Virus record (IMG/VR): IMGVR_UViG_3300010296_000008
Span: 1-60,968 of that record
Origin: a virus
Reading direction: 5' to 3' (one strand)
DNA: 60,968 nucleotides
Made by a program: the position numbers and the translations under genes. This document shows, piece after piece, positions 13,953 to 18,928 of this stretch. A model generated the notes under the pieces. It made no database searches. It saw only the letters and a program-made list of their open reading frames with translations, and was not told where the DNA came from. The first letter of the stretch is position 1, and every line of letters begins with the position of its first letter.

Positions 13953-14726
13953 ATGGCAAATCTATACCAAAAAGTACAGGAACAGATAGCACGTGGTGGG
14001 GGTATCGCTAAGTCGAACTCTTTCCGTGTTGTTCTGCCTGGAATTGAAAGGTTGAACCTTCGTGGTATAGATACCGACTCAAAAGAACTGTCAAAAACGC
14101 TGGAGATATTCTGCAACAACGTATCACTTCCCAGTGTTCAAGCTGCAACTAGTCAAGTTAATGGTTACTATACAGGGTCATCGTATAAGTTTCCTACAAT
14201 GAAAATGTATAATGATTTGTCTTTGCAGTTTATTTGTGATGCAAATATGACTGCTCTGAAAGTATTTAACTCCTGGTTTGATAAGATTTTTCAGGAGAAA
14301 GATATGTTTGGTCAGACAAATATTATTCCTGATGAGATGTCTTCGTATCCTCAGAGGCAACGTAATAGACACATCAGATTGTCTTACCCAGATTCATATC
14401 AAAGCACAGTAGTTGTTGACAAGTTTGAACCTGGGAAAAGATACAGTGAGCAGGGTAGAAGTATGAGATACTTCTTCACGAATGCATATCCTTATTCTAT
14501 TGATGCTGTGCCTCTGGATGCTGGCACTGCCACTTTAATGACGTGTTCTGTTAATCTTTTCTACGAAAGATTTGAGATTCAGTATGAGGATGCTAGAAAG
14601 AATTTGAAGAGTAGTAGTAATAATATTAAGTCGGGTGGTCCCCCAACTAGTTTGTCTGGAGCGATTGCGAACGTTGGCGATGCCTTCTCTGGATTCGTTA
14701 ACGATATGGGAAATCTCTTTAGTTAA
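13953..14726 (+). CDS. Tail-tube-fold protein, probable baseplate tube initiator (gp54-like)
   Basis: 257 residues. After a short N-terminal arm the sequence reads SNSFRVVLPGIE, KTLEIFCNNVSLPS, TGSSYKFPTMKMYNDLSLQFICDANMTALKVFNSWFDKIF, a pattern typical of the tail-tube/initiator fold (T4 gp19, gp48, gp54). Then FFTNAYPYSIDAVPLDAGTATLMTCSVNLFYERFE matches the conserved C-terminal strands. A gp54 role fits because it opens the hub operon and gp48-like lies just across the divergent promoter. Assignment to gp54 rather than a second tube protein is inference. Confidence 0.65.
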   Translation: MANLYQKVQEQIARGGGIAKSNSFRVVLPGIERLNLRGIDTDSKELSKTLEIFCNNVSLPSVQAATSQVNGYYTGSSYKFPTMKMYNDLSLQFICDANMTALKVFNSWFDKIFQEKDMFGQTNIIPDEMSSYPQRQRNRHIRLSYPDSYQSTVVVDKFEPGKRYSEQGRSMRYFFTNAYPYSIDAVPLDAGTATLMTCSVNLFYERFEIQYEDARKNLKSSSNNIKSGGPPTSLSGAIANVGDAFSGFVNDMGNLFS

Positions 14727-14760: not shown

Positions 14761-15474
14761 ATGCCTTTACCAAAACTTGATGTGCCCACATATTCTTGTG
14801 AGCTCCCCTCTACTGGTCAGACAATTAAGTATCGTCCCTTCCTGGTAAAGGAAGAGAAGGTTCTTCTTTTAGCATTGGAATCCGAAGACAACAAACAGAT
14901 TCAAGATGCTGTTGTCAGCTTGCTTACCAATTGTATTCAAAGCAGACTGAGTGTCAAGAAACTGGCGATGTTCGATCTCGAATATCTGTTTCTTAAGATT
15001 CGTGCAAAGTCTGTCGGTGAAGAGCTTGAACTGAAAGTAACTTGCACTGACGACAACGAAACTAAAGTCGATGTTACTATTGACCTGGAAGATGTTAGTG
15101 TAGTTAAACCAGATAATCATTCTGATACTGTGTATCTGAGTGATAACATCTGTGTGAAGATGAAGTATCCTTCTCTTGATCAGTTCATTAAAAATAACTT
15201 CGGTGAATCTGAAACTTCTTCTGAAGAAGTCTTCGAACTTATTGCCGAATGTATTGATCAGATTATTGATGGTGATGAAGTTTATGAGTCTGCAAACTGC
15301 AGCAAGAAAGAATTGGTTGAGTTCTTGGATAGTCTGACTTCAAAACAATTTGAGGCGATGCAAGAGTTCTTTGTTAATATGCCCAAACTTTCTCATAGTT
15401 TTAGTGTGGTTAACCCTAACACTAAAGAAAGATGTGATTATACTCTGGAGGGTCTTGCTTCTTTTTTCGGGTAG
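14761..15474 (+). CDS. 26: Baseplate hub assembly protein gp26
   Basis: 237 residues. MPLPKLDVPTYSCELPSTGQTIKYRPFLVKEEKVLLLALE and MFDLEYLFLKIRAKSVGEELELKV are the hallmark of the T4 base plate family Pfam assigns to gp26. A cysteine-containing turn, negatively charged middle and helical C-terminus follow. T4 gp26 is needed to build the hub around the tape measure; by position, gp26 and the next ORF resemble the tail assembly chaperones that precede tape measures in lambda-like phages. The last codons, TCT TTT TTC GGG TAG, contain a slippery heptamer that would shift ribosomes into the next ORF. Confidence 0.88.
   Translation: MPLPKLDVPTYSCELPSTGQTIKYRPFLVKEEKVLLLALESEDNKQIQDAVVSLLTNCIQSRLSVKKLAMFDLEYLFLKIRAKSVGEELELKVTCTDDNETKVDVTIDLEDVSVVKPDNHSDTVYLSDNICVKMKYPSLDQFIKNNFGESETSSEEVFELIAECIDQIIDGDEVYESANCSKKELVEFLDSLTSKQFEAMQEFFVNMPKLSHSFSVVNPNTKERCDYTLEGLASFFG
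15462..15468 (+). promoter_or_regulatory. Candidate -1 ribosomal frameshift site, T TTT TTC
   Basis: The heptamer is in the X XXY YYZ register of gp26 (codons TCT TTT TTC), two codons before its TAG. A -1 slip gives TTT TTT CGG GTA GTA ATG, entering the frame of the ORF at 15477 with no stop. The product would be 299 residues: 236 of gp26, Arg-Val-Val, and the 60-residue ORF. An 8-bp hairpin, AATAGTTT (15486-15493) with AAACTATT (15497-15504), lies 17 bases downstream, farther than usual for a stimulator. Confidence 0.55.
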
Positions 15475-15476
15475 TA

Positions 15477-15659
15477 ATGTCTTACAATAGTTTAGAAAAC
15501 TATTTTAGGACTAATTTCTCTCTGATTCAACATCACAAATATAACCTTAGTGATATTGAATCTTGGATGCCGTGGGAAAGAGAAGTCTACGTTGCCCTGC
15601 TATTACAGCATCTTGAAGAAGAGAAATTAAAACAACAGACAGCTAACGCTAACAGGTAA
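15477..15659 (+). CDS. gp51-position tail assembly ORF, possible frameshift extension of gp26
   Basis: 60 codons: MSYNSLENYFRTNFSLIQHHKYNLSDIESWMPWEREVYVALLLQHLEEEKLKQ. The 'MPWEREVYVALL' block is a pattern of small proteins or extensions placed just before tape measure genes. T4 has gene 51 (hub assembly catalyst) at this position, but that protein is much larger. The ATG lies two bases after the gp26 stop with no clear Shine-Dalgarno (the upstream sequence is TTTTTTCGGGTAGTA), which favours expression by frameshift or coupling. The stop overlaps the tape measure start (TAATG). Confidence 0.7.
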   Translation: MSYNSLENYFRTNFSLIQHHKYNLSDIESWMPWEREVYVALLLQHLEEEKLKQQTANANR

Positions 15660-18600
15660 TGGCACTAGACACTAACAGATACAAAAACAATCCTTTGGTT
15701 GGCGTAAAAGGCGCTGACTTTGTTAAGCTGTCTAGTGCATCTGTTAAGCAACAGATGGTTACTAATGCTCTGCTGTCAGATCTAGTAAATATTCAAACAA
15801 AGTCTCTCCAGTTACAGAAAGCGAGACTTGACTTTGATAAGAAAGCACTTGCTAGACAGAAATATTTTTCCCAAGAATCTGCTATTGAAAAGCAGTGGAA
15901 ACCTACTCGCCCTCCTAGTGGTGGACCTGGCGGCGGAGGATCTAAAAAGAAAGGTGGGTTAGATCTTGCAAGTGTTTTAAAAAATCTTAAGTTAAATCCG
16001 AAGACTATACTCCTAGGCGGAGCAGCTGTAGGTGGTGGTCTAGCTCTTGCATCACTACTTGCTAATGGTTTTGAAGGTGCTGCGGAGAAGTTAGAACAAT
16101 TTGCTGATCAGGTAGAGAACGTTGAGAAGAGAGTAAGAGCAACTCTACCTAAGATTAAAGAATTCTTCACCCCCATTAAAGGATTCTCTACATTTGATTT
16201 CGGCAACGCCGCAATGGGGTATACCTATGCCAAGAGATTTGGTACAGGTCCCAACGCAACTGGTGGTGCTGTTCGTGGTGCCATTGCACGTGGTGCAAAG
16301 GGTGCAGTAAAAGCAACTGGGAGGGGTGCATACGCTGTAGCAGATACTACTGGCGATCTTATGCGCCGTGGTGGTAGAAATATGGTGCAAATTTCTGGGC
16401 AGCGCTTCCGAGGTGCTGCTCAGGGTATGGAAGATCTTGCTACCAGGATGGGTCCTCGTGCTGGATCTAGCACACTTCCTACTAACCTCAACCTAGGTAA
16501 TATCGGTAGGGGTTTAAAGAATAGATTTGATCTTGCGATGTTTGATGCTCGCTTGTTAGCGAGAGGTGGTGACCCTGCGAAAAGTATTGCTGGCAGAATT
16601 GGAAGTCTGCGACAGGGAACGGCAAACATTGCGCAGAGTATCTCTGGTGGATTTAATAATAGAATTCTCAATCCTGCAAAGTTATTTAAAGAAGGTCTTA
16701 TCGGTGGCGGTGGTTCTAATGCTAGAGCACTGAGATTATCTGGCGCACCATTCCCCAACGTTGCTGTTGGTGGTCAGATGGATGACCTCGGTGGTGCTTT
16801 TAGACTTGGTAGAAACATAAAAGATACTGCTGCAAATATTAAATCTGGTCAAGCACTCCGAGATCTCGCATTTAATATTCGTAAAATGAATGTTAAGACC
16901 GTTACTGGTCTTAACAACACATTTAAATCTCTTCCTAATCAGCTAACAAATCTAGCCAAGTCTACAAAAAATTTATCTAATTCTACTAAGGCGTTTGCTG
17001 GTAGTGCAAAGACTGCCATTGCTAATTTTGATCTTGGCAAAGCAGCAATTCAGACTACCAAGGTAGCACAACGTGGTGCTCAGGGTACTCTCCGTGCTGG
17101 TGGAGCTCTTGTTCGCGCTACCCCTACGGTTATCAGAGGTACAGGACAAGTTGTTAGAGCTGGTGGTGGACTGATTCAGGGTGGCGCTAATTTAGCAAAG
17201 GGTACAGTCAATGCCATAAAAGGAAGTGGTGGATTACTTAAAGGTGCTGGTGCATTTGCTAAGCGTATTCCCGTTCTTGGTTCTCTGATGTCTGCTGGTT
17301 TCGGTGCCTTCGAGGCAGATCAGGAGCAGATCAAGGAGATTATGGCACGTAATCCTGGTATGACTGCTGCCGAAGCAAGACAATCACCTGAGTACGATAA
17401 ATCGAAGACGGTTGGTAGATCTGCTGGTTCTGGTCTGGGTGCTGGTGCTGGTACTGTTATTGGTGGTATTTTAGGTAGTGCTCTTGGTCCTATTGGTACT
17501 GCTCTAGGTGCTGCAGCTGGTGCTTGGTTAGGTGAGAACGTTGGTAAGTTCTTGGGTGAAGGATTTGCTAATACTTTCAAGTCTTTTAATTTTGGTGAGA
17601 CATTTGCTCCAGTGATGACCACATTCCAAAGGTTAGGATCCTCTATTACTAGTGCACTCGATACACTTGCTGGTGTGTTTGGTGTTGGTGGAGAGACAGC
17701 AGATGGTGAAGGATTTATTACAGTCCTCAAAAATGTTGGTAGAATTCTTGGCGTCATCACTAAGTTGATGATGAAAGCATTGGTTCCTATCTTCCAAATT
17801 GTTGGAGAAGGATTCAAGCTTGCCATTGATGGTCTTGCTGGTACGGTAAAAGTTTTTACTAATGTTATCAGTGGTGCCGTTGGATTTATGAACAAGCTTA
17901 TTGATGGTGTTCCTGGATGGTTAGGCGGCGATAGTCTTAGAAACTGGAGAGATAGTGCTGGGGGTATTTTTAGCGGTGATGTGATTGGCAATCTCAGCAA
18001 TATGGTTGATGGTCTTGACCTGTCTATCCCTGTTGAACCACCCAAGGGTGAAGGTGGTGGTGGAGTTAGATCTTTTGTTAGACCTTCTCAAGGCGCTGCT
18101 ACAGGCGTTGGCGGTGGTGGTACTCGTGGTCCACAACCAGTAGTTACTTCTCAACGTGGATGGCGTTGGGGTAAGATGCACCAAGGTGTCGATATTGCAT
18201 TTGCTGGTGATAAAGGTGGGCAGAGAATGTATCTGCCGATGGGTGCAAAGATTACTGATAAGAGACGTGCGGGATATGGCGATGCTGGGTATGGCAATTC
18301 GATTTATTTTACAACAGACGATGGATACACACATCTTTATGCTCATATGCGTGGTAACAGTCCACTGAAAGTTGGACAGAAATATCCAAAGGGAACTTTC
18401 GTTGGATTGCTTGGTAACACTGGTAGATCTACTGCACCTCACCTTCACTGGGAAGTTGGAAAGAATGAACAAGATGTTGGTAGAGGTGGACCATCTCTTA
18501 TTGATCCTCTTTCTAAGTATAGTAAGTATGCTCCTTTCTCTGGATCTGGATCTAGTATTCCTGCATCTGGAACAAGCACAGAACCAATGCATAATGATTC

Positions 18601-18928
18601 TATGTCTGCTCCTGTTTCTTCTACAACAGCGCCTGGTGCTGTTTCTTCTGCTGCTAATTACATTAGAAACCTGGCAGGAAAATCACAAGCTACTGCTAAT
18701 AGATTGAGATCTGCAGAGCAAGCAGTCACATCAGTGGGCACTAGTAATAAAGCAGCGGAAGCAATTACTACAGCTTTGGCACCATTAGCAGGGATTCAAC
18801 AACAGTTGTTGGATGCTGCGGGAGGTAGTGGATCAGCTTCTTCTCCTGGTGCATCTGGAACTGTTGTTATGTTCCCAACATCATCTCCTGTTAAAGATGG
18901 TGGTCATATTTTCAACTTTGATTTCTGA
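15659..18928 (+). CDS. 29: Tape measure-like protein (gp29 position) with M23 peptidase domain
   Basis: 1,089 residues against 590 for T4 gp29. The N-terminus is helical; Gly/Ala-rich stretches and hydrophobic segments around residues 590-650 and 680-730 (GAGAGTVIGGILGSALGPIG, ILGVITKLMMKALVPIFQIV) are typical of tape measures. From about residue 830 a LytM-type M23 zinc endopeptidase follows: H841-Q-G-V-D845, then H928-L-H930 (APHLHWEV), i.e. the full ligand and catalytic set. The domain could cut peptidoglycan crosslinks during DNA injection. The C-terminus is Ser/Ala-rich linker. The gene follows the gp26/51 pair as tape measures do. Confidence 0.85.
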   Translation: MALDTNRYKNNPLVGVKGADFVKLSSASVKQQMVTNALLSDLVNIQTKSLQLQKARLDFDKKALARQKYFSQESAIEKQWKPTRPPSGGPGGGGSKKKGGLDLASVLKNLKLNPKTILLGGAAVGGGLALASLLANGFEGAAEKLEQFADQVENVEKRVRATLPKIKEFFTPIKGFSTFDFGNAAMGYTYAKRFGTGPNATGGAVRGAIARGAKGAVKATGRGAYAVADTTGDLMRRGGRNMVQISGQRFRGAAQGMEDLATRMGPRAGSSTLPTNLNLGNIGRGLKNRFDLAMFDARLLARGGDPAKSIAGRIGSLRQGTANIAQSISGGFNNRILNPAKLFKEGLIGGGGSNARALRLSGAPFPNVAVGGQMDDLGGAFRLGRNIKDTAANIKSGQALRDLAFNIRKMNVKTVTGLNNTFKSLPNQLTNLAKSTKNLSNSTKAFAGSAKTAIANFDLGKAAIQTTKVAQRGAQGTLRAGGALVRATPTVIRGTGQVVRAGGGLIQGGANLAKGTVNAIKGSGGLLKGAGAFAKRIPVLGSLMSAGFGAFEADQEQIKEIMARNPGMTAAEARQSPEYDKSKTVGRSAGSGLGAGAGTVIGGILGSALGPIGTALGAAAGAWLGENVGKFLGEGFANTFKSFNFGETFAPVMTTFQRLGSSITSALDTLAGVFGVGGETADGEGFITVLKNVGRILGVITKLMMKALVPIFQIVGEGFKLAIDGLAGTVKVFTNVISGAVGFMNKLIDGVPGWLGGDSLRNWRDSAGGIFSGDVIGNLSNMVDGLDLSIPVEPPKGEGGGGVRSFVRPSQGAATGVGGGGTRGPQPVVTSQRGWRWGKMHQGVDIAFAGDKGGQRMYLPMGAKITDKRRAGYGDAGYGNSIYFTTDDGYTHLYAHMRGNSPLKVGQKYPKGTFVGLLGNTGRSTAPHLHWEVGKNEQDVGRGGPSLIDPLSKYSKYAPFSGSGSSIPASGTSTEPMHNDSMSAPVSSTTAPGAVSSAANYIRNLAGKSQATANRLRSAEQAVTSVGTSNKAAEAITTALAPLAGIQQQLLDAAGGSGSASSPGASGTVVMFPTSSPVKDGGHIFNFDF

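Follow-up and report, generated by a model that had tools for sequence, protein, structure and literature searches.

The question raised by this locus was whether a short open reading frame (ORF2) lying directly after the gene for a gp26 homologue is translated as a protein of its own or as a -1 frameshifted extension of gp26. The window, that is the whole stretch of DNA analysed, comprised 60,968 nt of viral sequence (IMG/VR record IMGVR_UViG_3300010296_000008, positions 1 to 60,968). In it, gp26 and ORF2 follow the tail tube gene and precede the long gene for a putative tape measure protein, the start of which shares one base (15659) with the stop codon of the -1 frame extension (Table 1). 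Profile searches assigned gp26 to phrog_150 and PF12322 (T4 baseplate hub, gp26), with columns 5-232 of the 282 in the PHROG profile covered, and ORF2 to phrog_634 ('baseplate hub assembly catalyst', gp51). ORF2 also gave a weak match to phrog_150, over its final 40 columns, a hint that some members of that family are continuous proteins. The M23 peptidase domain of the putative tape measure protein occupies approximately residues 840-940, and the matches listed for this protein in a public phage collection were to the M23 domain only.

The 3' end of gp26 reads TCT TTT TTC GGG TAG. The ATG of ORF2 lies 2 nt past this TAG and 716 nt from the gp26 start, hence in the -1 frame, and the -1 reading across the junction (FF-RVV-MSYN; FFRVVMSYN) is free of stops. 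The original prediction, a T TTT TTC heptamer in the correct register from which a -1 shift enters ORF2 with no intervening stop to give a 299-residue fusion, was reproduced in each of these particulars. Comparison with relatives clearly favours programmed frameshifting over the other explanations, and gp26-ORF2, judged from sequence and this comparison, is almost certainly a tail assembly chaperone (TAC) gene whose translation involves a programmed -1 ribosomal frameshift.

Table 1. Features of the gp26-ORF2 region, in window coordinates.
Feature	Position	Strand	Basis and remarks
Tail tube protein, upstream	13953..14726	+	phrog_45 E 2e-37; PF23849 E 6e-36
gp26 homologue, short tail assembly chaperone (TAC-N)	14761..15474	+	237 aa, ATG 14761; phrog_150 E 1.2e-81, PF12322 E 8e-73
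Long form (TAC-NC), predicted	join(14761..15468,15468..15659)	+	299 aa predicted; counterpart of T4 gp51
-1 slippery heptamer T TTT TTC	15462..15468	+	In gp26 codon register (X XXY YYZ), just before last codon and stop
-1 frame extension (TAC-C), post-slip reading CGG GTA GTA ATG ... TAA	15468..15659	+	Contains ORF2 (15477-15659); phrog_634 E 3e-26, ORF2 profile against T4 gp51
0-frame stop TAG, end of short form	15472..15474	+	Sequence and ORF list
Second ORF (ORF2)	15477..15659	+	60 aa; ATG 15477, TAA 15657-15659
Putative stimulatory RNA stem-loop	15479..15511 (about)	+	6 + 8 bp, 1x1 internal loop, 10 nt past heptamer
Putative tape measure protein	15659..18928	+	1089 aa; assigned from its length and position, with weak PHROG tape-measure matches; Pfam Peptidase_M23 E 6e-16

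Runs of six T are no commoner in the window than chance predicts (19 occurrences of TTTTTTY, expectation 27.6). Because such runs do occur by chance, the heptamer alone proves nothing, and its conservation carries the argument. The first comparison set consisted of 80 IMG/VR relatives with 51-72% amino-acid identity. In 80/80 of them (81/81 with the window) xxT TTT TTC stood unchanged in the 0 frame, and ORF2, wherever tblastn detected it (78 relatives), lay in the -1 frame; in the remaining two (L016 and L036) the sequence ends approximately 40 nt past the gp26 stop. The check on homologues that had been proposed for the frameshift candidate was thereby carried out, and it came out in favour. 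The codon preceding the heptamer always ends in T, and its residue is mostly Ser but also Asn, Ala or Gly. The Phe-Phe pair at the site is always encoded TTT-TTC, as against TTT for 74% of Phe codons in the body of the gene; the relatives share kinship, and a naive probability calculated from this codon choice is not a p-value. Codon choice at the slip site is thus fixed beyond the need of the protein. A chance T run was rejected as an explanation: the window contains many such runs, but the relatives all agree in where this one lies, in its register and in the codons chosen. Conservation across independent contigs likewise ruled out a sequencing error.

A second, more distant set was collected with gp26 of Sinorhizobium phage phiM19, and comprised 44 distinct junctions, mostly with approximately 30-40% identity to phiM19 gp26 and including a few Aeromonas and Ackermannviridae-type loci. 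T TTT TTC was present at 36 of the 44 junctions and T TTT TTT at seven; the one junction with neither belongs to an Ackermannviridae-type contig (L096). Heptamer and -1 register were also found in phages Melnitz-3, phiM19, Ps15, Milchi, AsFcp_2, CC2, V05, D484, Syn1 and S-H34. The named phages with the site span Kyanoviridae, Straboviridae and unplaced T4-like genera. IMG/VR searches for close relatives of gp26 from Vibrio phage K444 and from Serratia phage Kevin returned no locus and one locus, respectively.

The relationship to the T4 proteins was established by profile searches. T4 gp26 (208 aa) aligned to columns 14-235 of phrog_150, and T4 gp51 (249 aa), a continuous protein, to columns 13-280 (3-281 by another reading); T4 proteins may sit in the PHROG alignment, and the E-values from phrog_150 are not independent evidence in that respect. 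PF12322 matched the window gp26, T4 gp26 and T4 gp51. A profile built from the ORF2 family matched T4 gp51 residues 209-246 with an i-Evalue of 2.6e-5 (search size set to 300). T4 gp51 was thus recovered by PHROG, Pfam and ORF2-only profiles; a profile built from fused proteins of the cyanophage type did not find it directly. Among 14 records, two complete phrog_150 genes were found in T4 only. Each of the other 13 has a single gene; for five, the C-terminal columns of the profile were matched separately just downstream, in the -1 frame. On this profile evidence gp26 is homologous to T4 gp26, and gp26 plus ORF2 corresponds to T4 gp51; in T4, it follows, the short form and the long form each have a gene of their own. 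The parallel with lambda G/GT drawn at the outset is borne out to the extent that T4 gp51 is a natural continuous fusion and T4 gp26 the short form. In a 2010 review, gp26 and gp51 are listed as T4 hub assembly chaperones, and gp51 is described as essential and of unknown function (PMC3004832).

The AlphaFold model of gp26 (pLDDT 87.7) matched many predicted baseplate hub proteins. Among the PDB matches listed by Foldseek, the HK97 tail assembly chaperone 2ob9 had the highest probability (E 0.8, probability 0.63, below significance), and this comparison of a predicted fold is only suggestive. A sequence search of the PDB gave nothing useful. T4 gp26 also weakly matched the gp28 family (phrog_1140, E 9e-4; loci L082:3303-3929 and L082:5849-6382), a hint of gp28 as a possible additional distant relative.

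RNA structure was assessed downstream of the heptamer. In the window, a 14-bp stem-loop of -11.4 kcal/mol (z = -2.5; 3/200 shuffles as stable) begins after a spacer of 10 nt. The only stimulator noted previously was an 8-bp hairpin 17 bases away, which understated the structure, since this 8-bp inner stem extends outward via a 6-bp stem. Low frameshifting efficiency had been suggested for want of a stimulator; it may still be low, but the reason given had underestimated the hairpin. Across 79 relatives, the most structured stretch of a 740-nt scan (lowest mean energy) was the 45 nt beginning 15 nt past the first base of the heptamer. The median z for the 45 nt directly past the heptamer was -1.87; at four control positions it ranged from -0.58 to +0.61. 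RNAalifold found no structure common to the 79 sequences, in which stem positions vary between lineages, and a single universal stimulator hairpin was rejected on this result. A short helix (positions 11-15 with 20-24 past the heptamer) is shared by 27 of the 79 sequences, its arms varying in a compensated manner, and other lineages have other stems past the heptamer. A downstream stimulator is likely, but it would be specific to each lineage.

Initiation signals for the second ORF were surveyed at 79 junctions, in the -1 frame, over the region before the conserved LExY motif. An ATG was present in 60/79; nine had GTG or TTG only, and ten had none of the three codons. No Shine-Dalgarno-like 4-mer was found upstream of any candidate start in 77/79 junctions, and the original remark that ORF2 has no convincing Shine-Dalgarno of its own extends to nearly all its relatives, in some of which the start codon is absent as well. 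The outcome that would have spoken against frameshifting, with homologues having no heptamer, varying frames or a strong ribosome binding site for the second ORF, was not the one observed.

These counts bear on two other ways in which ORF2 might be translated. Both routes may operate, frameshifting giving the long form while coupled reinitiation releases some free ORF2 domain in lineages with a nearby ATG. This would be an addition to frameshifting and not an alternative to it, and the nearby ATG in 60/79 relatives, the window included, is compatible with it; the presence and position of that ATG vary, it is missing in 19/79 and the Shine-Dalgarno is generally lacking, and the additional route is considered unlikely. 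Very improbable is the reading in which ORF2 is simply a separate gene, translated by termination-reinitiation at ATG 15477 after the gp26 stop, with the T6 run incidental. The closeness of the window ATG to the TAG, the ATG in most relatives and the distinct 'gp51' annotated in databases would fit such a gene. It is contradicted by the ten junctions with no ATG, GTG or TTG and the nine more with no ATG, by the near-absence of Shine-Dalgarno sequences and by T4 gp51, in which the gp26 domain is fused to the ORF2 domain, and it leaves a fixed heptamer in a fixed register unexplained. Transcriptional slippage on the six-T run at the junction is hardly credible as the source of the frame change, given that six T is short for slippage by bacterial polymerases and that a conserved C following the run in most relatives, together with an unvarying codon register, is characteristic of a ribosomal -1 site.

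With programmed -1 ribosomal frameshifting as the preferred reading, expression of the locus may be pictured as follows. Most ribosomes would stop at the TAG at 15472 and yield the short form. A minority would move into the -1 frame at T TTT TTC, aided by the downstream stem-loop, and read through ORF2 to give the long form. In lambda, gpG is a short protein and gpGT its minor -1 frameshifted long form, both made just before the tape measure gene. The window locus is alike in encoding a short form and a putative -1 long form just before the tape measure gene, and by this analogy both forms would coat the product of the adjoining tape measure gene and help it to nucleate hub and tube assembly. 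It differs from lambda in its slip site (T TTT TTC against G GGA AAG), in that this site directly precedes the final codon and the stop, and in its T4-like tail genes. In T4 the homologous short and long forms come from genes 26 and 51, respectively, which are separate and divergently oriented and need no frameshift.

The conclusion that T4-like phages have such chaperones was reached here independently and is already published. The abstract of the 2022 study reportedly names T4 genes 26 and 51 and describes frameshifting conserved in several T4-like groups. The study itself (Vladimirov, Gautam and Davidson, Virology 2022;566:9-15, doi 10.1016/j.virol.2021.11.003) identified which genes of T4-like phages encode tail assembly chaperones, and the original remark of being aware of no such case for T4-type gp26/gp51 is outdated. 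In later papers it is credited with poly-T slippery sites in T4-like TAC-N genes (PMC12846349) and with separate short and long fused genes in some T4-like phages (PMC10885494). The phage of the window is an uncultivated IMG/VR record. As described in PMC12846349, the TAC locus of Pseudomonas phage Adele and of Vandenendeviridae and Andersonviridae is similar in belonging to contractile-tailed phages, in its conserved poly-T site and in a -1 extension missed by annotators, and differs in its motif (GTTTTT) and phage family. With the main point in print, the present analysis contributes the wide conservation of the site in uncultivated phages, the second ORFs with no start codon and the downstream structure. 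The two T4 hub factors gp26 and gp51, long puzzling, are linked to tail assembly chaperones, and the database 'gp51' of marine T4-like phages is indicated to be mostly the frameshifted tail end of gp26 and not a free-standing gene.

A few gp26 genes keep the -1 extension with the canonical heptamer absent. These are Ackermannviridae-type (SS9, Kevin and one IMG/VR contig) or from Vibrio phage K444 (L092:3118-3300, L093:3094-3267, L096 and L091:3061-3255), and the gene ends read GTT TTC ATC TAA, ATT TTC ATT TAA and CTT TTT GCG TAA. The extensions of SS9, Kevin and the IMG/VR contig have no ATG near their beginning. As a tentative proposal, a single gene with a frameshift might be ancestral in the gp26/gp51 family and the two genes of T4 derived, with Ackermannviridae relatives keeping the -1 extension behind a non-canonical site (ahead of the stop, G GTT TTC or G ATT TTC) and lacking a usable start codon for it.

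In public cyanophage records the extension is cut short or omitted (L094:3268-3399; S-CAM4 and ACG-2014j). The 'gp51' of Syn1 is annotated from an internal ATG approximately 50 nt past the gp26 stop codon, and no gene is annotated at the extension in S-CAM4 and ACG-2014j. Calls of 'gp51' from an internal ATG in cyanophages drop conserved residues.
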